64,000 nucleotides of DNA from Akkermansia muciniphila (lineage in GTDB: Bacteria > Verrucomicrobiota > Verrucomicrobiia > Opitutales > Opitutaceae), in contig CAMCZZ010000013.1 of NCBI GenBank assembly GCA_945888375.1, positions 1 through 64,000 of the forward strand, written 5' to 3'. Under the pieces are notes generated by a model that had not been told where the DNA came from, did not search any database, and saw only the letters and a list, made by a program, of their open reading frames with translations. A program made the translations under genes and the position numbers. Below, one piece after another: positions 4,218-21,699 of this stretch. Numbering within the stretch: the first letter of the stretch is position 1; each line of letters begins with the position of its first letter.

Positions 4218-6401
4218 TCAGCGCGCCCCGGACTTGTCGCTTTTCCCGCCGCCGGGCAGCAACTCGATGGCGGAGAGTCCGGCCTTGGTGGAGATTCGGA
4301 ACCTGCGACTGTCGTTGAACTCAACCATGGTGTCTCCGCCGTCCTGCGTGACCCGGTGAACAGGACTCGGCTGGTCAGGCTTGAGCGGAAGCAAAAGGGT
4401 GAGGAAACGCTGCTCACCTTTGATCTTCCGAGTGTGGAGAACGGTCGTGCAGGGCAGGCGCGGGGGCGTCATGTCCTTGCGCGTGTTCCAGCCGAGGATC
4501 TCCGGTTCCTCCTGCGCGCTGACCGCCTCCACCGAGAGGCCCTGCGTCAGGAGCGGCACGATCGCGAGGTTCGCCATCACCGGGTCGGTCGTGACGACCT
4601 GCCCGGTTTTCTCGTCTCTCGCCGTGCTGGTGCTGAGCAGGTGCCAGCGTGCCTGATAGGTGTGCTCCATTTCGTCATTCGGCGTCAACCGGTCGGCGAC
4701 CACGTAGAGGTCGGGCTTGAGGAAAAGCACCTCCCGCTGGTGCGTGGCGAGTCGAAGGCGTGAGGGGCCGAAGCCTTGGTCGAACACGCCGCGGGCGTAG
4801 TCGGAAACCGGCGTGCTCACCCAGTGCGCATTGATGGGTTCTTGGGCAACTGAAGCGGGGTCCGTCAGGCGTTTCTCCATCGGATAGGCCTCCGGCACAT
4901 CTTGCCCGAGGCCGTCAACCAGCACGCAGTTGTGTGCTGCGGTGGAAAGCGACCACGTCCGCCACTTGCTTCGCTCGTAGCTGGCCCCGCCGCTGTCGAG
5001 AAGCAGTTCGCGACCGTGGGCCCAGAGCACGATGTTAAGCTTGTCCTGGTGGACGTGGGCGAAGCCGAGCGGCCCGACATCGAAGACGAGGTAATTCGCG
5101 GTCGGAGACCAGTCCGAGCGCATCACTGCGAAGCCGGACCAGTCGAGAAACCGGGAGGTGAACTCCGGCGGCTTGCCTGCGCCGGATGGATCGAGCGCCC
5201 ACTGGAAATCCTGTCGTTCCGGGAAGAACTTCAACGCCTGCGTGTAGATTCTCTGCGCGGGCACGGGCCACGAGTCGTTGAACCGCGGCAGGTTCCGGTC
5301 CGGCGTCATGAGGGTGAGTAGGAAATCGTAGGTTTTCTCCATGGAGGAGATGTAGGCCGGAGGCAGTTCCGTCTCCCGTCCGGTCCGCCGCGCGACATCC
5401 GCGATGCGGAGAACGTTATCTATCGTCGCATTGTGATAGGCGGGCGTGAGCTCGACCTGCCCGCCGTCCGGAAGGAACTGCTTGTCGGCCTCGGCCGCCA
5501 TCGTCCTGGCCGCGAAGTCGCGCCACTCGGACGACTCCTTGAACTCGGGAAACACGGCCCCCGTGGTGTAAAGGCCCGCCATCTCCATCGCGAGCCAGTT
5601 GGCGATGGTCGGGTGGGCGCGGAGATAGCGCGCATGGTCAAGAAATGAGCCGAGCATCGTGACAACGGCCGCATCGGTGAACGACGGCGAGTCGAGGAAA
5701 GTGAACCAGGCGTCGGGCCAAGAATACGTCGTTCGCAGACCCGCCTCAATGGTCCGCCAAGCCGATGGGCTCTTGTTCATGACCGCCTGAGGCACCGTGC
5801 ATTCAGCCACCCAGTCGGTCATCTGCGAGACGAAGGCGCGGACGTATTTCTCGTCCTTGGTGGAGAGGTAGGCGCGGCCCAAATCAGCCCAGATATTCAT
5901 GCGGTTCAACTGCCACTGCCATTCCGGGTTGAAGGCGGTGTCCGGGTTGTTCTCGGTCGGGTTAAAAAGCCAGTTGATGTTGCCGGCGGGGAACTGGTGC
6001 TCGACCGCGACGAGACCGCCGACCACGCGCCCCTCAACGGCGGCGTCAGCGATCTTGGTGTTTCGCGGTCCGGGAGGAAGCCCGCCCCAAGCCGGGCGTT
6101 TGCGCTCACGCAGGTAAGCGGCCAACGCTTGGATTACCGCGGCGTGGTCTTTGGCTGCGGCCGCCTCCTTCACCTTGAGTAAATCCGGCCGGGAAAGATC
6201 AAGTGACCCGAGGATATCTTCCAGGCGACCTTCGGAAATTTGGAAGGAAACCGGAGTTACATGCTCCTTCACGGAGAGGCTGTCGGCCGTGGCGGATGCA
6301 GTCGGCGCTGAGGCATCGGCTCCAGCAGCCGGAGCAGGGGGCGAAAAAGTGGAAATGACCAGCAGGCCAACTCCGGTGGAAAGAAGCGGTGTTTTACGCA
6401 T
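4218..6401 (-). CDS. Heparinase II/III-like polysaccharide lyase, secreted
   Basis: A 727-residue protein with an N-terminal signal region ('LLSTGVGLLVISTFSPPAPAAGA'), an alpha/alpha-toroid alginate-lyase-like half (~residues 60-400; 'AWRTIEAGLRTTYSW', 'VELTPAYHNATI') and a beta-sandwich heparinase II/III half (~400-710; 'LVFDVGPLGFAHVHQDKLNIVLWAHGRELLLDSGGASY'). The 'AHxHxD' stretch followed by the 'DSGGxxY' stretch is characteristic of the heparinase II/III superfamily (PL12, PL17, PL39 and others), which cleave uronic-acid polysaccharides by beta-elimination. It is probably periplasmic or secreted. Which PL family it belongs to, and so its substrate, cannot be decided by eye. Its neighbours (GH43, carbohydrate-binding protein) support a glycan-degrading role. 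Confidence 0.88.
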   Translation of the reverse strand: MRKTPLLSTGVGLLVISTFSPPAPAAGADASAPTASATADSLSVKEHVTPVSFQISEGRLEDILGSLDLSRPDLLKVKEAAAAKDHAAVIQALAAYLRERKRPAWGGLPPGPRNTKIADAAVEGRVVGGLVAVEHQFPAGNINWLFNPTENNPDTAFNPEWQWQLNRMNIWADLGRAYLSTKDEKYVRAFVSQMTDWVAECTVPQAVMNKSPSAWRTIEAGLRTTYSWPDAWFTFLDSPSFTDAAVVTMLGSFLDHARYLRAHPTIANWLAMEMAGLYTTGAVFPEFKESSEWRDFAARTMAAEADKQFLPDGGQVELTPAYHNATIDNVLRIADVARRTGRETELPPAYISSMEKTYDFLLTLMTPDRNLPRFNDSWPVPAQRIYTQALKFFPERQDFQWALDPSGAGKPPEFTSRFLDWSGFAVMRSDWSPTANYLVFDVGPLGFAHVHQDKLNIVLWAHGRELLLDSGGASYERSKWRTWSLSTAAHNCVLVDGLGQDVPEAYPMEKRLTDPASVAQEPINAHWVSTPVSDYARGVFDQGFGPSRLRLATHQREVLFLKPDLYVVADRLTPNDEMEHTYQARWHLLSTSTARDEKTGQVVTTDPVMANLAIVPLLTQGLSVEAVSAQEEPEILGWNTRKDMTPPRLPCTTVLHTRKIKGEQRFLTLLLPLKPDQPSPVHRVTQDGGDTMVEFNDSRRFRISTKAGLSAIELLPGGGKSDKSGAR

Positions 6402-7741: not shown

Positions 7742-10711
7742 TTAGACGCGCGAACGGCGACGACGATACAGAACCAGACCAAGGGCTCCGAAGCCGCCGA
7801 GGACGGCGAAAGCGGAGGGCTCGGGAATGGCGGTGACTGAAAGGTAGCCGGTGGACTCGGTGAAGGTGAAGGTCAGGTTATTCGCCGTATCGTTGACCGT
7901 CCAAATGCCGAGCGCGCCGGAAAGCGCGCCCGGATTATAGACGGTGCCGGAGATGCTGACGCTATCGAGACCGGCGGCACCGTAGGAACCGGCGGCGTTG
8001 AAGAGGAAGAAGCTGTCGCTCGCGACCAGACCGGTGAGGCCGGTGGTGTTGATGAAGAGCGAACCATCGAAGGTAAGCGTGCCAGTGACCGAGACCTGAT
8101 CAAAATCCGTGCCCGCCGCGCCGGTGCGGCTGATGATCTCCATGTTGGTGACGGTCGTCGGTGCCATGGTCAGGTTGCCGATCACACTGGTGATGCCCGG
8201 GCTGTTGCCGGGGGCGAGGGTGCCGTTGATGGTAACGGTGTTGCCGGTCCCGATGTTGATCGTTCCGTGGCCGGCGATGGTCTGGTCGGTCCCGAAGGCG
8301 AAAGAAGCGCCCTTCGCGGTGAGATTGAGAGTGCCTTGCGAACCGCTGGTGCCGAGGTTGATAAAGGGGCTGTTGGCAAATGAGCCGGAGGCACCGAGGG
8401 CGAGAGTGCCGGCGGAGATGGTGGTGTTGCCTGAATATGTGTTGGCGCCGGAGAGGGTCACGTTGCCGGCGGTGCTCTTGGACAGGCCGTTCGAGCCGGC
8501 CAAAATCGCGCCGATGGAGCCACTCTGCACATCGTAGGTGCCGGAGTTGTTGGTGATGGTGCCGTTGCTCACCGCACCGCCGCCGGTGAGGGCGCCGAGG
8601 GTGTTGGTGATGCTGGCGGTGCCGAGGTTGAGCGTTCCGCCGGATACGGTCACATTCCCAGAACCCAAGGTGCCGGAACCGGAAAGCTGAAGCGTGCCTG
8701 CGGTGATGAGAGTGCTGCCGGCGTAAGTGTTGGCTCCGGATAGAATGACCGTGCCCGCGGTGTTTTTCGTGATGTTGATTGCACCAGCGCCGGCCGTGGT
8801 GACGTTGGCGGAAACAGTGCCATCTGACCAAGTGTAATTGGTATTGCTGGTGCGCAGGAGAGCTCCGTTCTGGATCACGCCGCCGTTGGTGAGCGAGATG
8901 GTGAATTTCTGCAGGTTGGTCGTGGTGCCCAAGTCAAGGGTTCCGCCCATGACATCAATCTGATTGGTGCTGGTGAAAGCGGCGACAGTTGTGATGGCCA
9001 GGACGCCAGACTTGATTTCCACCGCTCCAGTGAAATCGTTGGCGCCGCTAAGTGTGAGGGTGCCGGCGGAATCCTTGATGAGCTTTTTCCCTGCGCCGGT
9101 CAGTTTCCCGGCCACCGTGCCGGTTTGCAGCCCGGTGTAATTGGTCTCGGCGGTGGCGAAGGTGCCGTTGGTCAGGTTGCCGCCGGTCAGGCTGATGGTG
9201 GCGAAGGTGCGACCGGTGTTGGCGTCGAGGTCGAGGGTGCCGCCGGAAACGCGCAGGTCTTGCACGGTGCCGGTGGAGGCGGTGAGGACCCTCAGCGCGC
9301 CGGAGCTTACTTCGAGATCACCGAGGCTACGGTTGGAGGTGAGCGTGGCGGGCGTGGAAGTGGCTGCTGAGCCCGAATAGCGAAAGGATGAGTTGGCATT
9401 CAATGTGCCGGTGCCGCTGAGATCATTGGCCGTCGAGTTTCCGCCAACTGCGTTGATCACGGTGTTCGCGGCCACGTTGGTCGTAACGTTGCTGGTGGAA
9501 AACGTGAACCGATTCGCTTTGATTACGCCGCTGCCAGAGAGATTCCAGACAGTATTTGTCACACCGCTCTGCGTGCTAGCATTGGGCGTCCAAAGGCCGG
9601 AACCCGCTCCAGCGGAGAGATCGAGTGTGTTGCCGTTGGTGTCTATGCCGAGGTCGACGCGACCGGACTCGTGAGCGTTGCCGAAGCTCTGGGCTGCTGG
9701 CATCCCCGCGCCGGCGGTGGACGTCAGGTTGGAGCCGAGTTTTACAGTGGTGGTGCTATTAGACGAACCGTTGTTGCCATCGAAAAGCTGGAGTTGGCCG
9801 ATGCCGTTGCCACTGGCTGTGCTGGTCAGAGTCTTCACCCCTGTGGTGCGGGCTTGAAACACTGCGAGGGTCTTGTCGGTAGTCAGCGACTGGGCATTTG
9901 CGGTGTCCAAAGCGAGCGTGATATCGGTGTCGAAAGTTGTCGGACTAAAGGTGATGGGGCTTGTGGTTGAGAAGGTAATCGCTCCGCCGCCGCCCGTCTT
10001 TGCGGTCGTGATGGCGCCGCCAGTTACATTGACTGCGCCTTGGATAAGCAAACGTCGGTCGGCGAGCCCGGTCGCGTTCTCGATCGTCAAGGCACCGGAG
10101 CTCATAGTGAATCCCATGCTCAGCGTATTGGCCGCCGACGTGGCACTAGTCGTGCCCGTAGTGGCGCCAATCGTCAGTGTGCCTCCTTGCACCGTGAGGA
10201 GGCCAGTGCCGCCGGTCTGACCGAAATTAAGTGCGGAACCTCCGTTGCCCGTGCCCGTCATGACCAGATTGCCACCTGCGTTCAACGTTACCCCGCCACT
10301 CGGCGTCAGATTGAAGCCAGTGCTGGAAGAGCTGCCGATGATGATGCGCTCCGTGCCAGCAGCGGCCCCCAACGTGATGAGATTGGTGACCGTAAGACCC
10401 TTCTGAATATCGAGGATGTTCGCGAAGGCGGAAGATTGGTTGAAATTAAGCGTGCCCAAGGCTCCGCTGGCCCCGGTATCGTAGATGATCGTGCGGTTGG
10501 CTCCGGTGTCATCGAGGTTCGCGGTGTTGCCAGTCGTGGGAACGGTGTCGAGAGTCCAGAGGTTGGCGGTGGACCAGTTGCCGCCGACATTGGGGGTGCC
10601 GTTTCCGTCCCAAGTTTGGGCCTGGAGAACCAGCGGAGTCGCGGCCATGGCAAGCAACAGAGCGGACGCAACTGACGGACGGGGTAACTGACGGGCGTTT
10701 TTTAAGTTCAT
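7742..10711 (-). CDS. PEP-CTERM autotransporter-associated beta-strand repeat protein
   Basis: A 989-residue secreted protein: signal peptide at 1-32 ('ASALLLAMAATPLVLQAQ'), then a long Gly/Thr/Asn-rich region of imperfect repeats such as 'GTLTLSGANDFTGAVEIKSG' and 'GTVILSGANTYAGSTLITAG', the autotransporter-associated beta-strand (PATR) repeat that forms a right-handed beta-helix. It ends with a PEP-CTERM signal: 'IPEPS', a hydrophobic helix and 'RRRR'. Such proteins are processed by exosortase and are probably placed on or released from the outer surface. No autotransporter beta-barrel follows the repeats. It is transcribed divergently from the 10916 gene across a 204-bp gap that holds the promoters of both polysaccharide operons. 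A scaffold or adhesin role on the glycan substrate is inference. Confidence 0.9.
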   Translation of the reverse strand: MNLKNARQLPRPSVASALLLAMAATPLVLQAQTWDGNGTPNVGGNWSTANLWTLDTVPTTGNTANLDDTGANRTIIYDTGASGALGTLNFNQSSAFANILDIQKGLTVTNLITLGAAAGTERIIIGSSSSTGFNLTPSGGVTLNAGGNLVMTGTGNGGSALNFGQTGGTGLLTVQGGTLTIGATTGTTSATSAANTLSMGFTMSSGALTIENATGLADRRLLIQGAVNVTGGAITTAKTGGGGAITFSTTSPITFSPTTFDTDITLALDTANAQSLTTDKTLAVFQARTTGVKTLTSTASGNGIGQLQLFDGNNGSSNSTTTVKLGSNLTSTAGAGMPAAQSFGNAHESGRVDLGIDTNGNTLDLSAGAGSGLWTPNASTQSGVTNTVWNLSGSGVIKANRFTFSTSNVTTNVAANTVINAVGGNSTANDLSGTGTLNANSSFRYSGSAATSTPATLTSNRSLGDLEVSSGALRVLTASTGTVQDLRVSGGTLDLDANTGRTFATISLTGGNLTNGTFATAETNYTGLQTGTVAGKLTGAGKKLIKDSAGTLTLSGANDFTGAVEIKSGVLAITTVAAFTSTNQIDVMGGTLDLGTTTNLQKFTISLTNGGVIQNGALLRTSNTNYTWSDGTVSANVTTAGAGAINITKNTAGTVILSGANTYAGSTLITAGTLQLSGSGTLGSGNVTVSGGTLNLGTASITNTLGALTGGGAVSNGTITNNSGTYDVQSGSIGAILAGSNGLSKSTAGNVTLSGANTYSGNTTISAGTLALGASGSFANSPFINLGTSGSQGTLNLTAKGASFAFGTDQTIAGHGTINIGTGNTVTINGTLAPGNSPGITSVIGNLTMAPTTVTNMEIISRTGAAGTDFDQVSVTGTLTFDGSLFINTTGLTGLVASDSFFLFNAAGSYGAAGLDSVSISGTVYNPGALSGALGIWTVNDTANNLTFTFTESTGYLSVTAIPEPSAFAVLGGFGALGLVLYRRRRSRV

Positions 10712-10915: not shown

Positions 10916-13900
10916 ATGCCCCGCGTTTTCCGTCTCCTCTTCGCCGTCTTGCTACTCCTGCCGGCCCTCCTTCCCTTGCGCCTCTCCGCCCAAGCATGGA
11001 CTCCCGTGCCGCCTTGCAGCTTCTCAAGCCTCTCCCTCAGCCAATTCGCCGACCACGAGCTCGAGGTGCCTTACTTCCTCAACCACTTCGCCCAGGTCGC
11101 CAACGCCGTGGTCGAGTCCGGCACCGATCGCGGTTTCCTCAACATCAAGGTCAACCGCGACCCCGTTGACAATCAGACCTACAACGCCCGCATCATGGAA
11201 AACCAGCTCGCGCTGGCCTATTTCTACACCGCCAATCGCCCTTGGAACCCCTACTACGGCCAGGCCGTCGTCCGCGTCCGTCTCGAAGCCATGCTGGACC
11301 GGTGGACCCGCATCCAGGCTCCGGATACGAGCGCGAGCGCGGGTCTCTTCGCCGAATACAGCGCCACCAACTGGAGTCTCGCCCCGACTGGCTTTGGTGT
11401 TCTCCACGCCGCTCAGGCGCTCGATCTCGTCGCCGCCTCCGGTCTCACCTTCGACGCCGTCGTGCTCGAAAACTCCCGCCTCGCCTTGCGCAAGGCCCTG
11501 CTCGCCCTCTTCACCCGGGCCGACATGCGCTCCGCCGCCCGGCAATACAGCAACCAGTTCAACGGCTCCTACCATGCCGCCCTGCTCTACCTCGCCCGCT
11601 GGCCCGATTCCGCCCTCGACGCCGCTTTCGTTCAGGCCGTCAACGCTTCCTCCGCCCAGGACCAGAGTCTCGCCGGCTTTTTCTACGAGCAGGGCGGTCC
11701 CGACTTTGGCTACTCCAGCGTTCACGAGAACAATCTTCGCATCGCGCTCCCCCGCCTCCGCCAGCGCACCGATCTCTTCCCCATTGTCCAGGCCGACGAC
11801 TTGCGCTGGAACCAGTGGCTCGCCGCCAACTACGTTCCCCAACCCGGCTCCGCCACGCCCACCTACCTCGTCAACGCGGGCATAAACACACGCACTTCCC
11901 ACGGCTTCCTCACCCCCGCTACCCGCCCGCTCTCCGAATTTTCCGCACCGTCCCGGGTTTTTTCCTACACCGATACCGAATACGCCTCCCTTCTGGTGAA
12001 CCGCCGCGCCCAGGTGCAAACCCAGTTCGGCAACTGGGGCGCGCTCTCCGTGCCCAACGCCTACAGCTACATCCCGTCCTTCGTCTTCGACGCCGTTCAA
12101 CCGCTCAACGTCTGGCAACCCACCGCCGCCCAGCGCGACGCCGCCCTCGCCGCCCTGCCTTGTCGCGCTTCAGGCTCGGTCAACCGCCAGTTCCACGATG
12201 CCTGGCCCGTCACCGTCACCACCGTTCGCCGCCCCGCCTACTACGCCGCCCTCACCACCGGAAACATCCGCATCACCCGCCAGGTTTACGGTCTCGGTTT
12301 GCTCTGGCACGAGAAGTTCGGCGTCGCGCTCCAGTCCGTCGCCGCGACCCTCTCCGGCAACACTTGGGTCTGGGGCACCCGCCGCTCCGGCGTCACCAGC
12401 GGCACCTACGAAACCGCCAACCTCGCCGCCACGCTCACCGCCGACGGCGCGACGGTCACCCCCGCCACCGGCGTGCGCGACCTCGCTTCCGGCGATGTGG
12501 TCGCCACCTACCCGCTCGCCGCCAGCGGCACGACTTACGGACAAAAAACCGTCACCTTCGGCACCGGCCGCGTGGATGTTGCCATCACCCATTCCGGCGC
12601 GTTCACCGAGTTGCTGCCCCTCGCCCACGCCAGCGACGCCGTGCTTTCCAGCACCGCCACCCGGCTTACGTTTCAGCGGCCCAACGGCGCCTCCCTTGTG
12701 ATCGAGACCACCTCGCCCGGCGCGACTTTCACCGTCGGCGGCACCTCCGCGCTCACCACCGGCATCGTCCGCCGCGCCGTCAGCATCGCCGCCTCCGGCA
12801 GCCTCTCCTACCGCCTAACCTTGAGCGATCAGCCCCCGCTCGTGCTGCCTGCCCTCACCGTTTCCGATGCCACCGTCAACCAGCCCGCGAGCGGCACCGC
12901 GAATCTGGTGTTCACCCTAACCCTGACGCCCGCCTCCGCCAGCGCCGTCACGGTCAACTACGCCACCGCCAACGGCACCGCCCTCGCCGGCACCCACTTC
13001 ACCGCCACCAGCGGCACCCTCGCCTTCGCCGTCGGCCAGACCAGCCAGACCGTCACCGTTCCGGTCTCGGCCGGCACCCTCCTGCAAGGCACTTCTCTCG
13101 CCCTTTCGCTGCGGCTCATCACCCCGTCCGGTGCGTCCGTGGCCAACGACACCGCCACCGGCACGATCAACGGCATCACCCCGCCGCCCCCGCCTCCGCC
13201 GGGCAGTGCGCTGGTCGAATACGTGCCGGGCAACTCCTGGGGCTCCGGCTACCAGGGCACGTTTAAGATCACCAACTCCAGCACCGCCACCATCACCGGC
13301 TACGAGCTCCTCTTCGACTTCTCGGGCACCACGTTCACCTTCTTCAACGGCACCCTCACTCGCGCCGGCACCGCCTGCACGTTCACGCCGCTTTCCTGGC
13401 AGGCCACCATCCCCGCCGGCACGTTCTTCGACAACCTAGGCTTCCAAGCCTCCCCCGGCGATGCCCTGCCTCTCTCGCCTCGCCTGCGCATCACCTCCGC
13501 CACCGGCGTCTCCACGCTCCAAATCACCACCGCCGCCACCCTCCCCGGCACCAGCGCGGGCACCGCCTTCAGCCAGACTCTCGCCGTCGGCGGAGGCATC
13601 GGCCCTTACACGTGGTCGCTCGCCCCGGGCTCGACCCTCCCCGGCGGCCTCACGCTTTCCTCCGCCGGAGCACTCACCGGCACGCCTGTCACCGGAAGCT
13701 TTTCGTTCTCCCTCCGCGTCACCGATCTCCGGTCCGTCAGCGTGGATCGCGCCTTTTCCCTCGCCGTCGCCGCCCCGCCTTCCGCCTACGCGACTTGGCT
13801 CGCCAACACTCCTTGGGCCGCAGCCGACTCCGCCCCCACCGCCGACCCCGACGTCGACGGCCTGCCCAACCTCCTCGAATACGCCTTCGGCTCCAATCCG

Positions 13901-14152
13901 CTCGATCCGCGTGACACAGACATTCCTGTCTGTGGTCTGAATCCTTCAGCTTCATCTTTAACCTTAACCTTCCTGCGCGCCCGCTCCGATCTCACCTACG
14001 AGATCCAGGCCTCCTCCGACCTCGCCGCCTGGCAGACCATCGCCACCAATCCGGGAACAGTCAGCGCCTCCACTCCGCTCACCTTCACCGACTCGATCTC
14101 TCTCGCTACCGCCCCCCGACGCTTCCTCCGCCTAAGAGTGACTCCCCCATGA
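10916..14152 (+). CDS. Multidomain secreted protein: unassigned toroid-like glycan enzyme candidate + Calx-beta + CBM2 + Ig-like
   Basis: The ATG at 10916 (27 codons inside the longest frame) starts a signal peptide ('LLFAVLLLLPALLPLRLSAQA'). About residues 25-640 are homologous along their length to the neighbour at 18686: shared blocks include 'VANAVVESG', 'YNARIMEN', 'AGFFYEQGGPDFGYSSVHENNLRI' and 'NRQFHDAWP'. This region looks like an alpha-helical toroid plus beta domain, as in polysaccharide lyases, with conserved Tyr/His, but I cannot assign it to a known family. Then follow a Calx-beta module (~655-765), a Pro-rich linker, a CBM2-like module ('NSWGSGYQGTFKITNSSTATITGYEL'), a putative Ig domain ('LPGGLTLSSAGALTGTP') and the verrucomicrobial C-terminal segment 'TADPDVDGLPNLLEYAFG'. 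First gene of the plus-strand locus. Confidence 0.8.
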   Translation: MPRVFRLLFAVLLLLPALLPLRLSAQAWTPVPPCSFSSLSLSQFADHELEVPYFLNHFAQVANAVVESGTDRGFLNIKVNRDPVDNQTYNARIMENQLALAYFYTANRPWNPYYGQAVVRVRLEAMLDRWTRIQAPDTSASAGLFAEYSATNWSLAPTGFGVLHAAQALDLVAASGLTFDAVVLENSRLALRKALLALFTRADMRSAARQYSNQFNGSYHAALLYLARWPDSALDAAFVQAVNASSAQDQSLAGFFYEQGGPDFGYSSVHENNLRIALPRLRQRTDLFPIVQADDLRWNQWLAANYVPQPGSATPTYLVNAGINTRTSHGFLTPATRPLSEFSAPSRVFSYTDTEYASLLVNRRAQVQTQFGNWGALSVPNAYSYIPSFVFDAVQPLNVWQPTAAQRDAALAALPCRASGSVNRQFHDAWPVTVTTVRRPAYYAALTTGNIRITRQVYGLGLLWHEKFGVALQSVAATLSGNTWVWGTRRSGVTSGTYETANLAATLTADGATVTPATGVRDLASGDVVATYPLAASGTTYGQKTVTFGTGRVDVAITHSGAFTELLPLAHASDAVLSSTATRLTFQRPNGASLVIETTSPGATFTVGGTSALTTGIVRRAVSIAASGSLSYRLTLSDQPPLVLPALTVSDATVNQPASGTANLVFTLTLTPASASAVTVNYATANGTALAGTHFTATSGTLAFAVGQTSQTVTVPVSAGTLLQGTSLALSLRLITPSGASVANDTATGTINGITPPPPPPPGSALVEYVPGNSWGSGYQGTFKITNSSTATITGYELLFDFSGTTFTFFNGTLTRAGTACTFTPLSWQATIPAGTFFDNLGFQASPGDALPLSPRLRITSATGVSTLQITTAATLPGTSAGTAFSQTLAVGGGIGPYTWSLAPGSTLPGGLTLSSAGALTGTPVTGSFSFSLRVTDLRSVSVDRAFSLAVAAPPSAYATWLANTPWAAADSAPTADPDVDGLPNLLEYAFGSNPLDPRDTDIPVCGLNPSASSLTLTFLRARSDLTYEIQASSDLAAWQTIATNPGTVSASTPLTFTDSISLATAPRRFLRLRVTPP
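13915..13934. repeat. 20-bp perfect hairpin inside a coding region
   Basis: CACAGACA-TTCC-TGTCTGTG has an 8-bp perfect stem and a TTCC loop. It lies in frame in the C-terminal segment of the multidomain protein, encoding 'TDIPVC' between 'NPLDPRD' and 'GLNPS'. The equivalent place in the PL11 fusion protein at 30653 has unrelated sequence. AT content and style differ from the surrounding very GC-rich, C-ending codons. It may be a short dispersed palindromic repeat that inserted without breaking the frame. Confidence 0.5.
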
Positions 14153-15066
14153 TCGTTCCACGCCCTCGCCATCGCTTCCCCGGTTTCGTCGCCCTCCTCA
14201 CCCTCGTGTCCATCGCCTCCGCCGAATCCCTCTCCCTCGATAACGGCGTCACCACCGTGAGAATAGACCGCACCCGCGGCGGGGCCATCACCTGGGTCTC
14301 CGTTTCCGGCGGCACCAATCTCATCAACCTCCACGACCTCGGCCGCCTCGTCCAACAATCCTACTACGCCGGCGCCCGCCTCGACCGCCGCGCCGAGGGC
14401 CAGTCCCCCGCCTGGAGCCCCTGGACCTGGAACCCCGTCCAGGGCGGCAGCTTCGCCCACGCCCCCGGCATCCTCGATAAATTCGAGTCGCGCGACGGCG
14501 TCCTGCACAGTCTCACCCGTCCCAAACTCTGGGATATGCCAGACGAGACCGCCGCCTGCACCATGGAGCAATGGACCGAGTTCGAGCCCGGCCAGCGCAA
14601 CGTCATCCGCGTCACCAACACCCTTGTCATCCGCCGCCCCGCCGACGACCGCTGGGGCGACGCCAAACCCAACCACCAAGAACTCCCTGCCATCTACCTC
14701 GTCCGCGCCTTCGCCACCGCGCGCATCTACGAGGGCGAGGGCCGCTGGACCGACTTCCCCATGCCCGCGCTCTCTGCCAAAGGCTGGGGCCGTCCCGTCG
14801 TGCCCAAGCGCGCCATGGCCTTCTTCCGCGCCGACGGCTTTGGTTTCGCCATCTACAGCCCCGCCGCCGGTGCCACCTGGAACAGCGGAATCACCGGCAC
14901 CTCCCGCTCCGCCGATCCGAAGCACGCCGACACCACCCACGTCGCCCCCATCGCCACCATGACCCTCAACCACGACTCCACCTACACCTTCCGCTACTGG
15001 CTCCTCCTCGGCGACGCCACCACCCTCGCCTCCGACCTCGACGAGTTGATCAAGAGATACCCCTAG
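14149..15066 (+). CDS. Secreted beta-sandwich protein of unknown function in polysaccharide locus
   Basis: A 305-residue protein whose ATG overlaps the upstream stop (ATGA at 14149), indicating translational coupling. Residues 1-25 are a signal peptide ('FPGFVALLTLVSIASA'). The mature part starts 'ESLSLDNGVTTVRIDRTRGGAITWVSVSGGTNLINLHDLGR', the style of mutarotase-like or lyase-associated beta-sandwiches that bind sugar rings, with 'LVQQSYYAGARLDRRAEG' and 'SPWTWNPVQGG' following. I do not recognise a family. Its position between the candidate lyase and the sulfatase suggests action on the same glycan; whether it is catalytic is unknown. Confidence 0.7.
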   Translation: MIVPRPRHRFPGFVALLTLVSIASAESLSLDNGVTTVRIDRTRGGAITWVSVSGGTNLINLHDLGRLVQQSYYAGARLDRRAEGQSPAWSPWTWNPVQGGSFAHAPGILDKFESRDGVLHSLTRPKLWDMPDETAACTMEQWTEFEPGQRNVIRVTNTLVIRRPADDRWGDAKPNHQELPAIYLVRAFATARIYEGEGRWTDFPMPALSAKGWGRPVVPKRAMAFFRADGFGFAIYSPAAGATWNSGITGTSRSADPKHADTTHVAPIATMTLNHDSTYTFRYWLLLGDATTLASDLDELIKRYP

Positions 15067-15101
15067 GACCTTCAATCCCGCCCTGCACTTCGCTCAATAC
15101 C

Positions 15102-16487
15102 ATGCCCTCGTTCCCCTCCTTGCCGCGCTCGCTCCTCGCCGCCGCTCTCGCCGCTTTCTCCACCGGCAATCTCGTTTCCGCCGCCGCGAGCCCCGTCATC
15201 CGCCCCCCCAATGTCCTTGTCCTTGTCTCCGACGACCACCGCCACGACGCCCTCGGCGTCGTCCAACGCGAACTCGGCGCGCAGGCCAACTACCCGTTTT
15301 TAAAGACTCCCCAGCTCGACCGCCTGGCCGCCTCCGGCACGCGTTTTCGCAATGCCTTTGTCACCCACTCCCTCTGCTCCCCCAGCCGGGCCACCATGCT
15401 CACCGGACTCCACTCGCGCGCCCACGGCATCACCCACAACGACCAGCCTTTCAACTCCACCGCCACCTGGCCCGCCCTCCTCGCCGCCCAAGGCTGGCGC
15501 ACCGGCTACTTCGGCAAGTTCCACATGGGCACCCAGCGCCACCGCCCCGGCTTCCAGGAATCCGCCACCTTCATCGGCCAGGGCGTTTACACTGACTGCC
15601 CTTTCGTCATCAACGGCGTGGACACCCCCACCACCGGGTGGGTGGACGATGTCACCACCTCCTACGCCATCGACTACATCCGTCGCCACCGCGACACACC
15701 CTTCGCGATGTTCGTCGGCTTCAAAACCCCGCACGACAAGCGCACCCCCGCCCCGCGTCATGCCTCACTCTACGGTGACCTCACTCTCCCCGAGCCCACC
15801 AGCTTCCGCGACGTCGCCCCGTGGCGTCGTCAGAATCCACCCGGCCCGTGGAATCCCAAAAACCCCGACCGCCTCGCCTACTTCCAAACCATAGCCGGCA
15901 TGGATGAAAACATCGGCCGCCTGCTCGATACCCTCGACGAACTCCACCTCACCGAAGATACCCTCATCATCTACGCCGCCGACAACGGCTACTACCTCGG
16001 CGAACACGGCCTCGGCGATAAGCGCACCGCCTACGAGGAATCCATCCGCATCCCGTTTCTCCTCCGTTATCCCCGCCGCGTGCCCGCAGCCTCCGTGCGC
16101 CACGAACTCGTGCTCAACCTCGACTTCGCCTCCACCATCCTCGACTACTGCGGCCTCGCGTCTACCTGGAAACAAAGCGGACGCAGCCTCGCCCCTCTCC
16201 TCGCCGCCGCGCCCGGAACCGTTCCTTGGCGCTCCGCCTTCCTCTACGAAAACCTCGAGGACCCCGCCTACCCGAAGGTCACTTTCGACGTCCTCGCCGT
16301 TCGCACCCTCACCCACAAATACGTCGAGCACCCCGCCCATCCCGACTGGACCCAGCTCTTCGATCTGCGCGCCGATCCTCACGAGATGCATAACCTCGTC
16401 TCCGATCCCGCCGCCGCCTCCACTCTCGCCGAACTCCGCACCGAACTCGCTCGCCAACGAGCCGCCGCTGCCACTCCGTCGCCCTAG
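15102..16487 (+). CDS. Sulfatase (arylsulfatase superfamily, Cys-type)
   Basis: A 461-residue type I sulfatase that hydrolyses sulfate esters, here probably on a polysaccharide. ATG 15102 starts a signal peptide (1-29, ending 'GNLVSAAAS'); the longer open frame upstream has Arg-rich shadow sequence and is rejected. The metal-binding start 'NVLVLVSDDHRHDALG' (Asp44, Asp45) is followed by the CxPxR signature 'LCSPSRATMLTG', in which Cys92 must be converted to formylglycine. A second metal-site stretch 'IIYAADNGYYLGEHGL' and the 'KRTAYEESIRIPFLLRYP' segment are present. Cys-type sulfatases need a formylglycine-generating enzyme or an anaerobic maturase; none is in this window. It lies between the unknown beta-sandwich protein and the PL8 lyase, pointing to a sulfated glycosaminoglycan-like substrate. 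Confidence 0.93.
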   Translation: MPSFPSLPRSLLAAALAAFSTGNLVSAAASPVIRPPNVLVLVSDDHRHDALGVVQRELGAQANYPFLKTPQLDRLAASGTRFRNAFVTHSLCSPSRATMLTGLHSRAHGITHNDQPFNSTATWPALLAAQGWRTGYFGKFHMGTQRHRPGFQESATFIGQGVYTDCPFVINGVDTPTTGWVDDVTTSYAIDYIRRHRDTPFAMFVGFKTPHDKRTPAPRHASLYGDLTLPEPTSFRDVAPWRRQNPPGPWNPKNPDRLAYFQTIAGMDENIGRLLDTLDELHLTEDTLIIYAADNGYYLGEHGLGDKRTAYEESIRIPFLLRYPRRVPAASVRHELVLNLDFASTILDYCGLASTWKQSGRSLAPLLAAAPGTVPWRSAFLYENLEDPAYPKVTFDVLAVRTLTHKYVEHPAHPDWTQLFDLRADPHEMHNLVSDPAAASTLAELRTELARQRAAAATPSP

Positions 16488-16519
16488 GCGCGACCACGCT
16501 CCGCCCATCGGGAAAACCC

Positions 16520-18583
16520 ATGCCGCGTCACCTTCCCCGCTTCCTGTTCCCGACGCTGCTTTTCCTCGCGCCCTTCATCTCGTTCGCCGTCCCCTCGCTG
16601 ACCGGCGATCTCGAAATCCTTCGCGCCCGCCTCGCCACCGAATGGCTGGCCAACGTGGACGTCCCCGCCGCCCAAAGCACCCTGGCCGCCCAGTCCCCCG
16701 AAGGTTCCTGGCCCGACATCGACTACGCCGATAATCAGGGCACCAACTGGCCCCACCTCCAACACATCGAGCGCGCCTCCCTCCTCGCCCGCGCCTATTG
16801 CCAACCCGGCTCCGCCCTCGCGCGCGACCCCGCCGTCCGCATCGCCATCGCCCGCGCCTGGGAGTTCTGGTTCGCCCGCGATTTCACCAACGTCAACTGG
16901 TGGTATAACGAGATCGGCATCCCGCGCACCCTCGCCACCGGTCTTGTGCTCCTGCGCGACGAGCTGACTCCGCGCGAACTCGAACAGGGCATCCGCATTC
17001 TCGCCCGCGCCAAGATCCAGGCCGAGTCGCAAAACCTCGTCTGGCTCGCCGAAATCAACGCCCTGCGCGGCCTGCTCGCCGCCGACGAGGCCCTCGTCGC
17101 CCGCGCCTACGCCCGCATCGCCGCCGAAATCCGTGTCGTCACCCCGGGTGCCGAGGGTCTCCAAGCCGACTTCAGCCTCCTCCAGCATCGCCGCTGCCTC
17201 TACAACCACGGCTACGGCGCATCCTTCGCGGTGGACGGCACACGCCTCGCCCGCCTGCTTTCCGGCACCCGCTTCGCCCTGCCGCCCGAGCGCATCGCCT
17301 TGCTCGAAAACCTCCTCCTCGACGGCTCGCAATGGATGGGCCTCGGCCCGTGGCAGGACTGGGCCGCACGCGGCCGCGAGATCGCCCGCATCGGTCGCGG
17401 CCTCGGCACCTACCAGGCCGCCGCCGCCGAAAATCTGCTAGCCCTCACCCCGCCCTCTTCGCGCGCCGCCGAACTCGGCGCCCTCGTCGCCCGCATCCGC
17501 GAACAGCCCGACGCCCCGCCGCTCTCCGGCGCCCGCCACTTCTGGCGCGCCGACTTCACCGTGCTCCAGCGTCCCGGCTTCTACGCCTCCGTGCGCACCT
17601 TCTCCTCCCGCCTCGCCAACACCGATTTCAACGGCCCCGAAAATCTCCTAGGCCACCACCTCGCCGACGGCGCCACCACTCTGATGGCCCGCGGCGGCGA
17701 ATACGCCTCCATCTTTCCCCTCTGGAATTGGCAACGTCTCCCCGGCGTCACCGCCCGCCAGACTCCTCCGCTCACCCCCGGCAGCCCTCGTCGCGAAAAC
17801 GGCTCGCGTGATTTCGCCGGTGGCGTGAGCGATGGCAGCGCCGCCTTCGCCGCCTTCGACTTCGAGCGCGACGGCCTTGCCGCCCGCAAAGCATGGTTCC
17901 TCACCGACGCCGGCCTGCTCGCCCTCGGCACCGGCCTCTCGGATTCGGAAAACCATCCCGTCGCCACCACCCTAAACCAATGCCTCCTGCGCGGCTTAGT
18001 CGTCACCGAGTCCAACCCGGTCGCTTCCTCCACCACCTGGCTATGGCACGATGGCCTAGCCTACGTTTCCCTCGACGGCGCTTCGCTCCACCACGAAGCC
18101 GGCCCACGCACTTCATCCTGGCGCGCTATTCACCAAAACCTGCCCGCAACGCCAATTACCGGCGACCTCTTCACCGTGTGGCTTGACCACGGCTCCGCCC
18201 CGCGCAACGCCTCCTACGCCTACCTCGTCGCTCCCGCCACCGATGCCGCCGCCACCCGAGCCCTCGGCACCGCACCCCGCGTCCGCATCCTCGCCAACAC
18301 CCCCACCCTCCAAGCCGCCGCTCAACCCGCCGACGGCCTCCTTGGCGCGGCGTTCTACGCTCCCGGCGAACTTGATCTGGGCGCCTCCGGCGTCCTTGCC
18401 GTGGATCAGCCCTGCCTCGTGCTGCTCCACCGCCTCCCCGATGGCTCGACCGAACTCAGCGTCGCCGACCCCACCGCAAAACTCACGAGTGTCAACGTCC
18501 GCCTCGGCCCCACCCGCGCCGACTTCATCCTGCCCTCCGGCCCCGATGCCGGCCGCACCGTCACCCGCGCCCTGCCACGCTAA
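16520..18583 (+). CDS. Polysaccharide lyase family 8 (chondroitin/hyaluronan/xanthan lyase type)
   Basis: A 687-residue secreted lyase (signal peptide 1-23) that cleaves uronic-acid glycans by beta-elimination. The N-terminal alpha/alpha toroid (~30-310) holds the PL8 catalytic set: Asn172 in 'QNLVWLAEINALRGLL', His223 and Tyr232 in 'LLQHRRCLYNHGYGAS', and the Arg pair 286/290 in 'GREIAR'. The His-to-Tyr spacing of nine and Asn-to-His spacing of about 51 agree with chondroitinase AC (Asn175, His225, Tyr234). The rest is the PL8 beta-sandwich region ('DFNGPENLLGHHLADGATTLMARGGEY', 'RKAWFLTDAGLLALGTGL'). Known PL8 substrates are chondroitin, hyaluronan, xanthan and alginate; with a sulfatase next door, a sulfated glycosaminoglycan-like polymer is the best guess. 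Confidence 0.93.
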   Translation: MPRHLPRFLFPTLLFLAPFISFAVPSLTGDLEILRARLATEWLANVDVPAAQSTLAAQSPEGSWPDIDYADNQGTNWPHLQHIERASLLARAYCQPGSALARDPAVRIAIARAWEFWFARDFTNVNWWYNEIGIPRTLATGLVLLRDELTPRELEQGIRILARAKIQAESQNLVWLAEINALRGLLAADEALVARAYARIAAEIRVVTPGAEGLQADFSLLQHRRCLYNHGYGASFAVDGTRLARLLSGTRFALPPERIALLENLLLDGSQWMGLGPWQDWAARGREIARIGRGLGTYQAAAAENLLALTPPSSRAAELGALVARIREQPDAPPLSGARHFWRADFTVLQRPGFYASVRTFSSRLANTDFNGPENLLGHHLADGATTLMARGGEYASIFPLWNWQRLPGVTARQTPPLTPGSPRRENGSRDFAGGVSDGSAAFAAFDFERDGLAARKAWFLTDAGLLALGTGLSDSENHPVATTLNQCLLRGLVVTESNPVASSTTWLWHDGLAYVSLDGASLHHEAGPRTSSWRAIHQNLPATPITGDLFTVWLDHGSAPRNASYAYLVAPATDAAATRALGTAPRVRILANTPTLQAAAQPADGLLGAAFYAPGELDLGASGVLAVDQPCLVLLHRLPDGSTELSVADPTAKLTSVNVRLGPTRADFILPSGPDAGRTVTRALPR

Positions 18584-18685
18584 ACCGCGCCGTCGGCCAT
18601 AGTTTTTTCAATTCACCGCGCAGGGTTTACGAAACAGTGAACCCCGCGTCGCCCTCGTCGCGGCTCCGCTTAAGCCTCGCGCGCG

Positions 18686-20593
18686 ATGCCCCCCTTTCAC
18701 CCTTTTATAGCCCTTATCCCGGTTTTCCGCTTTGCCGGTTTGCTCCTCCTGCTGACCGCGCCGTCCCTTCGCTCGGCCGAGTCCGCCGCCGTCTGGCCCG
18801 AGGTTCCTTCCGCCGATTTCAGCCGCATCAAACCGGCAGACTTCACCGACCAGGAGGTGGATGTCCCCTACTTCCTTTTTCACTTCCCCCGCGTCGCCAA
18901 CGCGGTCGTGGAATCGGGCGAGAATCGCGGCTTCCTCGACCTCGCCGTCAACCGCGACACCAATGACAACAAACCCTATAACGCGCGCATTATGGAGATG
19001 CAGATGGCCCTCGCCTATTTCTACGGCGCGGACCGCCCGTGGAATCCCTATCACCGCCACCCCGCCGTGCGCGTCCGGCTCGAGGCCATGCTCGTGCGCT
19101 GGACCCGCATCCAGAACGCCGACGGTCTCTTTTCCGAGTATTCGCCGGATAACTATAGCCTCGCTCCCACCAACTTCGGCGCCATGGCCGCCGCCCAAGC
19201 CCTTGAGATCATCGTCAGCACCAAAGCCCCCTTCGATCCCGAAATCCTCGCCGCCGCCAAAAGCTCCCTCCGCTCCGCGCTCATGGCCATGTTCACCCGT
19301 GACGACATGGCTCGCCACGCCCGCGATTGGAGCAACCAGTTTAGCGGCTCCTACTACGCTGCCCTCGTTTACCTAAAACTCTGGCCCGACGCCGAGCTCG
19401 ACTCCGCCTTCGTCGCCGCCATCACCCGCGCCAGCCGCGAGGACCAGTCGCCCGCCGGCTTCCACTACGAACAGGGCGGCCCCGACTTCGGCTACTCCGG
19501 CGTCCACGACAACAATCTCCGCATCGCCTGGCCGCTCCTGCGCGAGCGCCCCGACCTTACCCGCCCCATCCTCGACGCCGACCGGCGCTGGAACCGCTGG
19601 CTCGCCTACAACTTTGTCCTCCAACCCGGCACCGACCAAAGCCCGCTCTTCATCACCAACGCCGGCATCAACGCCCGCACCTCCCACTCCTTCCAAAACC
19701 CTCGTCCCCGCCCCCTCGCCGAGCTGATCGCGGAGGCGCGCCCCTTCGCCGACACACCCTCAGAACAGCGCCGCGACCTCGCCTCCAAACGTGAAAAACT
19801 CGCGTCCTCCTGGGGCGAGTGGCCCGAGCTTCGCGTCCCCAGCCCCTACTCCTACGGCCCCGGTTTCGTTTACGATGCCTGGCGCCCGCTCAACTCCTGG
19901 CAGGCTCCCGAGCCCGATCGCGCCGCCGCCCTCGCGAAGATGCCTTGGCGCGCCGCCACCAGCTTCAACCGTCAACTCCACGACGCCTGGCCGCTGACCG
20001 TCACCCTCGCCCGCCGCCCCACCTACTACGTCGCCTTCAACTCCGGCCGCCTTCGCGTCCCGCGCCAAAACTACGGCCTCGGCCTCGTCTGGAACGACAA
20101 GTTCGGCGCCGCCCTGCAGGCCGTCGCCGGCACCGCGTGGGCCGCCGGCACGCGACCCGCCATCCCCGATGCAAAACTCTACGAACAATCCACCGCCACA
20201 ACCCGTTGCCTCGTCGCCGGCGGCAGCGTGACGCCCATGGTCGGCGAGCAATCCCTGCGCGAGGGCGACCTTTGCCTGAATTACAAACTGGCCGAGGCCG
20301 GCACCAAGTCCGTCACCTTCGCCGCCACCCGCATCTCCACTGAGATTACCCATCGCGGCGATTTTGAAGAACGCCTCCCGCTCCTCGTCCCGGACGATGC
20401 CAAGGTCGAGCAAAGCGCCTCCCGCCTGCAGATCGGCCGCCGCGATGGCGCAACCTTCCTCATTGAGGTAAAATCACCTGGCGCGAAACTGACCCTCGGC
20501 CCGCCCGAGCCCTTCGCCGGCGGCCTATCCCGCCGCGCGCTTGTGATCGCCGCCCCCGGCGGCACGCTCAGCTACGATCTGTCGTTCCGATGA
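18686..20593 (+). CDS. Secreted toroid-like protein, single-domain paralogue of the 10916 product; candidate new lyase family
   Basis: A 635-residue protein with a signal peptide (1-30, ending 'APSLRSAES'). It aligns over nearly its whole length with residues ~25-640 of the 10916 product: 'EVDVPYFLFHFPRVANAVVESGENRGFLDLAVNRD', 'YNARIMEMQMALAYFYGADRPWNPY', 'YEQGGPDFGYSGVHDNNLRI', 'NAGINARTSHSF', 'FNRQLHDAWPLTVTLARRPTYYVAF'. It lacks the Calx-beta, CBM2 and Ig modules. The invariant His, Tyr, Asn and Arg residues and the helix-then-strand order recall two-domain polysaccharide lyases, but no family signature is recognisable. The next gene overlaps it by four bases. Probably a secreted glycan enzyme; an uronate lyase is the leading hypothesis, not a demonstrated function. 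Confidence 0.78.
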   Translation: MPPFHPFIALIPVFRFAGLLLLLTAPSLRSAESAAVWPEVPSADFSRIKPADFTDQEVDVPYFLFHFPRVANAVVESGENRGFLDLAVNRDTNDNKPYNARIMEMQMALAYFYGADRPWNPYHRHPAVRVRLEAMLVRWTRIQNADGLFSEYSPDNYSLAPTNFGAMAAAQALEIIVSTKAPFDPEILAAAKSSLRSALMAMFTRDDMARHARDWSNQFSGSYYAALVYLKLWPDAELDSAFVAAITRASREDQSPAGFHYEQGGPDFGYSGVHDNNLRIAWPLLRERPDLTRPILDADRRWNRWLAYNFVLQPGTDQSPLFITNAGINARTSHSFQNPRPRPLAELIAEARPFADTPSEQRRDLASKREKLASSWGEWPELRVPSPYSYGPGFVYDAWRPLNSWQAPEPDRAAALAKMPWRAATSFNRQLHDAWPLTVTLARRPTYYVAFNSGRLRVPRQNYGLGLVWNDKFGAALQAVAGTAWAAGTRPAIPDAKLYEQSTATTRCLVAGGSVTPMVGEQSLREGDLCLNYKLAEAGTKSVTFAATRISTEITHRGDFEERLPLLVPDDAKVEQSASRLQIGRRDGATFLIEVKSPGAKLTLGPPEPFAGGLSRRALVIAAPGGTLSYDLSFR

Positions 20594-21699
20594 TTTCCAT
20601 GCCTTCGCCCCTCCTCGTTCACCAACTCCGTTCCGGCCTGCCCCGTTTGCAACGCGCCCTCGCCGCCGGTGTCGTCCGTCTTGGTTTTCTCGGCGGCTCC
20701 ATCACCGATCAAAAAACCGGCGCGCGCTGGCCCGAGCCTGTGCTCGCCTGGTTCTCCGCCACGTTTCCGCAAGTCCGCCTGATCGTCGAAAACGCCGCCA
20801 TCGGCGCCACCGGCAGCGACCTCGCCGTCTTCCGCGCCGCGCGCGACACCCTCTCCCGCGACTGCGACCTCGTCTTCGTCGAATACGCGGTCAACGACCA
20901 AGGCACTCCCCCCGTGCAACGCCGCCGCTCCCGCGAGGGCCTGCTCCGCCAGCTCCTCGCCGAGCCGCGCGATGTCGTGCTCGTTTACACCTTCATGCAG
21001 GAGCACCACGCCGACATGGCCGCCGGCCGCGCGCCCGCCTCGGTCGCCGATTTCGAGACCCTCGCCTCGCACTACCAACTCGGTTCCGTCTGGGTCGGCC
21101 TCCACGCCCTGCGCGAGGTCGAGATCGGCCTCCTGCGCTGGGAAGAGTGGCTGCCTGACGGCCTTCACCCCGAGCACCGCGGCAGCCTTAGCTACGCGCA
21201 GGCCGTGATCGCCCTCCTGCAACGCGAACTCCTCGATACGCCTCGCTCCAATGCCGCCCCCGCCGGCCCGGCGCTCCCTCCGCCTCTCGATCCGTTCTGC
21301 TGGCAAAACGTATCACAGATACCCTACGCCGACATCGCCCGCACCGGCCCCTGGACCGAACGTCGCTGGGGCCAGCTCAACTGGATTGATCAGGTGCTGC
21401 ATTGCACCTCCCCGGGGGCGACGCTGACGACGCGCTTCAACGGTCGCGGCCTCGTCGCCGCCTTCGATTTCGGCGCGACATCCGCCGAGTTTCGTTGGCG
21501 CATAGACGGTGGCGAGTGGCAGCTCAGCGAACGCGAACGCCCGGCCTGGGCCGGCCCCTCCGGCTGGTTCCGCCCCACCATCCTCGCCGAAGATCTCGCC
21601 CCCGGTCCGCACACCCTAGATTTTGAAACCACCCGCGGGGTCCGTTCTGACTGCATCGGCTGCACCACCGACCTCGTATTTTTCGGTGTGATACACTGA
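20590..21699 (+). CDS. SGNH/GDSL-family hydrolase (carbohydrate esterase candidate)
   Basis: A 369-residue esterase coupled to the upstream gene by an ATGA overlap at 20590. The SGNH blocks are visible: block I 'LGFLGGSITD' with nucleophile Ser37, block II 'GATGSD' with the oxyanion Gly, block III 'EYAVND' with Asn102, and block V 'DGLHP' with Asp190 and His193. Residues ~230-369 form an additional beta-rich domain ('FCWQNVSQIPYADIARTGPW', 'LTTRFNGRGLVAAFDFG') reminiscent of the accessory beta-sandwich in two-domain SGNH carbohydrate esterases. There is no signal peptide with this start. It likely removes acetyl or similar ester groups from the glycan or its oligosaccharides. Last gene of the plus-strand locus. 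Confidence 0.88.
   Translation: MISMPSPLLVHQLRSGLPRLQRALAAGVVRLGFLGGSITDQKTGARWPEPVLAWFSATFPQVRLIVENAAIGATGSDLAVFRAARDTLSRDCDLVFVEYAVNDQGTPPVQRRRSREGLLRQLLAEPRDVVLVYTFMQEHHADMAAGRAPASVADFETLASHYQLGSVWVGLHALREVEIGLLRWEEWLPDGLHPEHRGSLSYAQAVIALLQRELLDTPRSNAAPAGPALPPPLDPFCWQNVSQIPYADIARTGPWTERRWGQLNWIDQVLHCTSPGATLTTRFNGRGLVAAFDFGATSAEFRWRIDGGEWQLSERERPAWAGPSGWFRPTILAEDLAPGPHTLDFETTRGVRSDCIGCTTDLVFFGVIH

Follow-up and report, generated by a model that had tools for sequence, protein, structure and literature searches.

In a 64,000-nucleotide stretch of DNA from Akkermansia muciniphila (contig CAMCZZ010000013.1, positions 1 to 64,000; hereafter the window), two paralogous genes, designated FAM1 and FAM2, probably encode secreted polysaccharide lyases of a family that is not catalogued in the libraries searched, namely Pfam, NCBIfam and the chains of the Protein Data Bank (PDB). 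Among the known toroid polysaccharide lyases (PL families), we regard the pair as a candidate for a new family or variant, and most likely as an undescribed family of uronate lyases.

10916..14152, + strand: FAM1 (P0001, 1078 amino acids), the modular paralogue, with a signal peptide recognized by eye, a core at approximately residues 24-640, then a Calx-beta domain, CBM2 and a C-terminal tail
10985..12829, + strand: shared core of FAM1, with candidate active-site residues N213, E258, D263, Y266 and R326 taken from the FAM1-FAM2 alignment
18686..20593, + strand: FAM2 (P0002, 635 amino acids), the single-core paralogue, with a signal peptide recognized by eye and candidate active-site residues N217, E262, D267, Y270 and R331

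Alignment of the two products by BLASTP yielded 322 identical residues among 616 (52%; 621 bits), and no further copy of the core was found in the window genome at E up to 0.001. An earlier examination of the letters alone (the sequence-only reading) had singled out a long shared region with two motifs, and the open reading frames are as it described them: the first motif is YEQGGPDFGYSSVHENN / YEQGGPDFGYSGVHDNN and the second NRQFHDAWP / NRQLHDAWP in the two products. It had also assigned binding modules to one paralogue only. Behind the FAM1 core, Pfam identified a Calx-beta domain (E 4.5e-09) and CBM_2 (50.1 bits against a cut-off of 24; E 3.8e-13), and neither domain was matched in FAM2.

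Sequence family and distribution

We use "unassigned" for a protein without a family in Pfam, NCBIfam or PDB chains. At E up to 1, neither Pfam nor NCBIfam had a family for FAM2. At the same threshold the 14 members of a set designated A4 drew matches to five Pfam and four NCBIfam families, none of which was convincing; the best were to GH127 (0.016) and pectic acid lyase (PL10; 0.062) in Pfam, each in a single member, and at 0.065 in NCBIfam. The Hepar_II_III N and C domains, which we take to be carried by PL12, PL15, PL17 and PL21, were matched in 0 of the 14 members (Pfam, E up to 1), and Lyase_8_N and Lyase_8 were matched by Pfam neither in FAM2 nor in the 14. A profile of A4 found no PDB chain at E <0.25 and four at E up to 10, no lyase among them; the characterized PL33 and PL35 members with solved chains thus showed no sequence similarity in this search. 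Single-sequence phmmer searches against the PDB returned chance matches only. Within these libraries, the claim that the shared region fits no described family was therefore upheld. Searches with FAM2 in PADLOC and in phage records returned nothing, and a literature search of titles and abstract openings (including few subscription papers and no preprints) found no account of the family. The literature used for comparison comprised excerpts of PMC11848413, PMC12088678, PMC11262172 and PMC12269599.

Where sampled, the family occurs rarely and patchily, in three phyla. When 384 genomes of the class were searched at the protein level, five gave matches: G000 (the window genome), G237 and G324 strong ones, G076 and G143 weak ones. 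With a profile, 11 of 387 genomes of the phylum matched, G000, G460 and G488 strongly and the other eight partially and distantly; the two draws share genomes. Scanning of genome contigs with two peptide patterns from close relatives revealed nine loci, all in metagenome-assembled genomes (MAGs) of Verrucomicrobiota, and actinobacterial relatives were reached via plasmid records only. The nearest locus, 91% identical, belongs to an Opitutaceae MAG from a pond. The homologues in plasmid records were those of Gemmatirosa (38.5%), Nonomuraea (26.9%) and four near-identical Streptomyces sequences (approximately 26%).

In the tree, the FAM2 genes of the window and of loci L008 and L009 formed one clade (99/99), and a separate clade (90/87) held the FAM1 genes of those lineages. 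FAM1, FAM2 and a GDSL gene are consecutive in L009, which is from another Opitutaceae genome, and the GDSL gene also follows FAM2 in L008, where it is cut by the contig end. Given that both clades are present across lineages, the duplication predates the split of these Opitutaceae. A recent duplication of the pair was ruled out by the FAM2 clade and by the presence of both paralogues in L009.

Ten distant proteins yielded no name above chance (eight scanned with Pfam and five with NCBIfam). Distant proteins that retain the GGxD..Y motif together with the Asn and Arg are L023, L024, L028 and L030 (frames of 557-614 amino acids) and L025, L026, L027, L029 and L033 (752-897 amino acids); a Pfam scan of seven of them (all but L029 and L030) gave no name above chance. 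At L068:2401-6357, which includes L032, a family member lies behind a five-bladed propeller-like domain and a LamG-type domain, as judged by eye, in a single frame of 1319 codons.

Predicted fold and candidate active site

We obtained a structure model of the shared core with AlphaFold2 from 10 sequences (predicted local distance difference test score, pLDDT, 82.4; predicted template modelling score, pTM, 0.81). Helices lie between residues 24 and 381 of the model and strands from 391 to 598 (core numbering; P0002 numbering is +36). An N-terminal (alpha/alpha) toroid followed by a C-terminal antiparallel beta domain is the fold order of the toroid polysaccharide lyase clan, and the sequence-only reading had anticipated this outcome of structure prediction and fold search. 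The first rank in a Foldseek search was BcPL35 (9o3q; PL35, 2.5e-12), followed by GAGase II (8khv; PL35, 8.4e-12) and GAGase VII (8khw), and further ranks were occupied by PL39, PL12, PL33, PL8, PL17, PL21 and PL15. Polysaccharide lyases of the two-domain fold made up 25 of the first 26 rows, the exception being CgsiGP1 at rank 21. In structural alignments with VIA-align, PL12 and PL35 chains scored Z 15.6 (452-463 residues) and PL33 scored Z 15.4 (461 residues). These three families were thus tied, with root-mean-square deviations of 5.8-7.0 and identities of 10-11% in the top rows, and the large deviations are in line with the interdomain hinge motion described for BcPL35. The modeled fold and the relationship to toroid lyases are well supported for a prediction.

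With hhalign, a 25-member profile of the family scored 43.3 against Hepar_II_III proteins and 38.4 against PL8, whereas the maxima for 150 column shuffles were 20.6 and 23.1, and reversal gave 16.8 and 17.7, respectively. The corresponding scores of the 15-member core were 33.2 and 31.3, with 25.6 for GH127 and 17.5 for GH88. The Hepar_II_III alignment placed N217 on an Asn, and Y270 one column off the Tyr of PAYH, in the PL12-type protein of the window; that with PL8 placed N217 on the Asn of TGAN and Y270 on the Tyr of GYG. Alignment of A4 with single lyases of the window was uninformative, and profiles were needed. At the level of sequence, the profile signal shows kinship to toroid enzymes, leaning to lyases, and no more.

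Conservation was counted in 15 core and 10 distant members. In P0002 numbering, N217 and R331 are present in 25 of 25 aligned relatives, and E262, G265, D267 and Y270 in 24 each. The single exception is the Nonomuraea protein, which has a gap or, at E262, an Asp; L018 is gapped at G265, D267 and Y270. Near copies of the window pair (L008, L014) were omitted, as was the FAM1 copy of L009, together with L003 (DNA identical to part of L012), L007 (half length), L016 (a fragment) and L005 (weak); L006, although weak, was retained. N217 and Y270 are 53 residues apart, as are N213 and Y266 of FAM1, a spacing within the range of approximately 53-63 for the clan. Excerpts of the literature give the spacing of the catalytic Asn and Tyr as 53 in PL33 (N238/Y291; PMC11848413), 53 in PL39, and 54 in PL12 and PL35 (PMC12088678, Table 4).

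PL35 thus resembles the family in fold order and Foldseek rank and, to within one residue, in this spacing, but the identity is only about 10-12%, there is no match at the sequence level, and the FAM proteins have an invariant Arg331 and lack a conserved beta-domain His. PL33 (BT4410) and PL12 (heparinase III) share the fold, whereas their catalytic His444 and His424 are not conserved in the FAM family. The same holds for His405 of the PL39 alginate lyase Dp0100 (6jp4), which has the same fold and no sequence match. PL8 (chondroitinase AC, xanthan lyase) shows the same fold order, aligned Asn and Tyr residues and an Arg further on, but nothing in the FAM family corresponds to its His, which precedes Tyr by nine residues in 1RWA. 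The Asn-His-Tyr-Arg cluster of PL8 lies, we assume, wholly within the toroid, and candidates for its Asn, Tyr and Arg are present in the FAM sequences. The position eight residues before Tyr is occupied by Glu262 in 24 of the 25 members and by Asp in one; an excerpt of PMC12088678 places a His nine or eight residues before Tyr in PL8 and PL23 and includes Asn, His and Tyr in the PL8 toroid site. In BcPL35, as described in part of the comparison literature, E228, four residues before Tyr, is essential. E262 may correspond to this residue across a GGP insertion, which leaves a three-residue gap.

A mechanism consistent with these residues would be as follows. The toroid and beta domain would close over an acidic polysaccharide, where Asn217, together with Gln218, would neutralize the uronate carboxylate and Tyr270 would serve as acid/base towards C5 and the leaving oxygen. 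Glu262, Asp267 and Arg331 might hold the substrate or tune the Tyr. Beta-elimination would then cut the chain and generate an unsaturated uronate end. CBM2 may tether FAM1 to insoluble or cell-bound material, with FAM2 remaining free.

Gene neighbourhood and substrate

The other genes of the locus are listed below.

3052..4149, - strand: GH43-type protein, on the opposite strand upstream of FAM1
4218..6401, - strand: PL12-type (heparinase III-like) lyase; nearest solved chain 4mmi (6.8e-54)
7742..10711, - strand: long PATR-repeat protein, divergent from FAM1, with a PEP-CTERM-like sorting tail at its end (by eye)
14149..15066, + strand: 305-amino acid protein of unnamed family, overlapping FAM1 by 4 bases; an 86% homologue follows FAM1 in L014
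15102..16487, + strand: sulfatase (PF00884, 1.9e-46); nearest solved chain GlcNAc-6-sulfatase 5g2v (4.4e-65)
16520..18583, + strand: PL8 lyase (PF02278, 7.1e-67); nearest solved chain chondroitinase AC 1hm2 (3.3e-94)
20590..21699, + strand: GDSL-like hydrolase (PF13472, 32.7 bits, just below the cut-off of 32.9), overlapping FAM2 by 4 bases

The pair flanks the sulfatase and PL8 genes, as the sequence-only reading had stated, with the 305-amino acid protein gene also in between. Between 10916 and 21699, the six + strand genes follow one another with gaps of at most 102 bases or 4-base overlaps, an arrangement as in an operon. The 305-amino acid protein received no family name from Pfam, NCBIfam or a further search. 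The GDSL-like hydrolase is a possible partner deacetylase, and the PL12-type lyase and GH43-type protein may, by inference, belong to the same polysaccharide locus as the FAM pair. The window genome (3.22 Mb, 39 contigs) encodes 15 sulfatases, three PL8 proteins and five Hepar_II_III_N proteins.

The layout had been read as that expected of an unrecognized lyase acting on the same sulfated uronic-acid glycan as the sulfatase and PL8 enzyme, and the two proposed partners fared differently. Orthologues of the window sulfatase were found near family members in L013 (Akkermansiaceae MAG, 65%), in L015 (Chthoniobacter MAG, 69%, adjoining gene) and in the near-identical lineage L008/L014, so that one sulfatase subfamily recurs in Opitutaceae, Akkermansiaceae and Chthoniobacter MAGs. 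These orthologues share only approximately 24-32% identity with the 14 remaining sulfatases encoded in the window genome (36% over one 86-residue piece). A profile scan of 19 neighbour loci, which include four of distant members (L069-L072), detected sulfatase frames in three (L008, L013 and L015); a contig-end sulfatase fragment in L014 was seen separately. A general partnership with PL8 was not borne out: among frames of at least 250 amino acids, the PL8 profile matched in just two of the 19 loci, L008 (window lineage) and L076 (Nonomuraea). The Nonomuraea PL8 is itself part of that profile and had been missed by phmmer with the window's PL8. The Hepar_II_III profile matched in 0 of the 19; given that several of these loci span only 3.5-9 kb, absence there says little.

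Some further features of these loci were observed. A HipA-like gene (PF07804, 1.7e-40) at L013:8592-9818 separates the sulfatase from the family member. At L014:7429-9755, two genes with low G+C content at third codon positions, the first DNA cytosine methylase-like by eye, lie between the homologue of the 305-amino acid protein gene and the sulfatase fragment, an insertion absent from the window. L082 (G000:C25:8000-27500) is a second polysaccharide locus of the window genome; it holds a xanthan-lyase-like PL8 (1j0m, 1.2e-158), a sulfatase, LacI, an ABC transporter, a PL14-like protein, GH10 and an 1815-amino acid PATR/CBM4_9 protein.

Removal of sulfate by the locus sulfatase might allow the lyases, or exo-enzymes, to proceed. 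The nearest solved chains of the sulfatase, the PL8 lyase (chondroitinase AC) and the PL12-type lyase (heparinase-like) favour a glycosaminoglycan-like polymer. Another candidate substrate, to which we give a little less than an even chance, is a sulfated glucuronate/mannose polysaccharide (xanthan- or glucuronomannan-like, from algae or cyanobacteria) in place of one resembling chondroitin or hyaluronan. Alpha-mannosidases adjoin family loci (GH125 in L014 and GH38 in L015), homologues of parts of L082 recur beside family members in L013, L014 and L015, and L082 also has homologues of two kinds of gene that lie beside the family members in L013 and L015: one encodes a long protein, and the other has an L082 homologue that matches PL14. 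No GH125 was found in the window genome, and the three nearest chains point the other way; the mannosidases and L082 homologues make this polysaccharide about as likely as a glycosaminoglycan-like one.

A broader proposal, which we advance tentatively, makes the pair the founding members of a new lyase family inside a larger unnamed superfamily that spans Verrucomicrobiota, Gemmatimonadota and Actinomycetota and takes in distant groups of about 860-900 and 560-610 amino acids. In this view the family would have an Asn-Glu-Tyr-Arg toroid site that lacks the clan's beta-domain His and, together with a dedicated sulfatase, would attack a sulfated polysaccharide that contains glucuronate and may be rich in mannose, a polymer for whose breakdown no endo-lyase is known. 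If so, the toroid lyases would gain a family with an altered catalytic set and a sulfatase subfamily tied to it as partner, and proteins of several phyla that match no family in the libraries searched would become nameable. The altered set would probe how far the shared Tyr mechanism needs that His. FAM2 would be a compact enzyme with which to identify the sulfated acidic polysaccharide eaten by these bacteria. The substrate of the pair would be directly testable because the sulfatase gene lies near family members in three bacterial lineages.

Weighing the lyase assignment

Several observations weigh against assignment of the pair as lyases. No activity is known for any family member found, and the lyases matched by Foldseek share just 8-12% identity with the core. 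The toroid modeled alone (pLDDT 74.6) gave no Foldseek match <1e-3, and its best VIA match was a sugar 2-epimerase (Z 13.7), with PL5, PL35 and PL39 within approximately 1 Z; the toroid-only model was thus discarded as an aid to family assignment, being no sharper and matching generic toroids. The lyase assignment accordingly relies on the two-domain architecture together with the residues, not on the toroid alone. With regard to those residues, the His/Tyr/Asn cluster that had been proposed was recovered in part: the Asn/Tyr pair, with the clan spacing, is nearly invariant, but the His is not, the nearest candidate for the beta-domain His of PL12, PL33, PL35 and PL39 (H424, H444, H401 and H405, respectively) being H432, present in 8 of 15 core members. 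Because the search that reached the distant members went through the motif region, their motif conservation is partly selected. The Y232A mutant of BcPL35 lost about two thirds of its activity, according to an excerpt of the literature, and with approximately a third retained Tyr conservation alone is no proof of mechanism. In the profile comparisons, the 25-member profile also scored above 60 shuffles against GH127 (30.1; maximum 19.6) and GH88 (24.0; maximum 18.5), and the lyase signal of the 15-member core alone was modest (P 0.008 and 0.014). The control pair Hepar_II_III and GH88 scored 34.9, whereas PL8 and Hepar_II_III scored just 19.4 despite their common fold, and hhalign therefore separates lyases from other toroids poorly.

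An enzyme of the same class that already belongs to a CAZy PL family not represented in Pfam, NCBIfam or PDB chains, such as one that lacks a solved structure, is a less favoured explanation, and we consider it rather unlikely. There are 44 PL families according to the part of PMC12088678 consulted for comparison, and the Streptomyces, Nonomuraea and Gemmatirosa homologues would suit a family already recorded; the lack of a convincing name for the 14 A4 members or the ten further proteins, and of a PDB chain at E <0.25, argues against it.

We think it improbable that the pair are glycoside hydrolases built from a toroid and a beta domain. Modeled by itself, the toroid is similar to many others, a Glu and an Asp are conserved near the Tyr, the GH127 and GH88 scores exceed their shuffles, and a weak GH127 match in a single member stands beside that to PL10. 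These hydrolase profiles scored under the PL12-type and PL8 profiles, however, and all but one of the first 26 two-domain fold matches are lyases.

It is very improbable that the proteins are uronyl C5-epimerases like DS-epi1, or other enzymes of this fold that leave the chain uncut: human DS-epi1 shares the fold (6hzn, VIA Z 12.9) but acts in biosynthesis, whereas the FAM proteins have signal peptides (by eye), CBM2 and a degradative-looking locus with a sulfatase and PL8.

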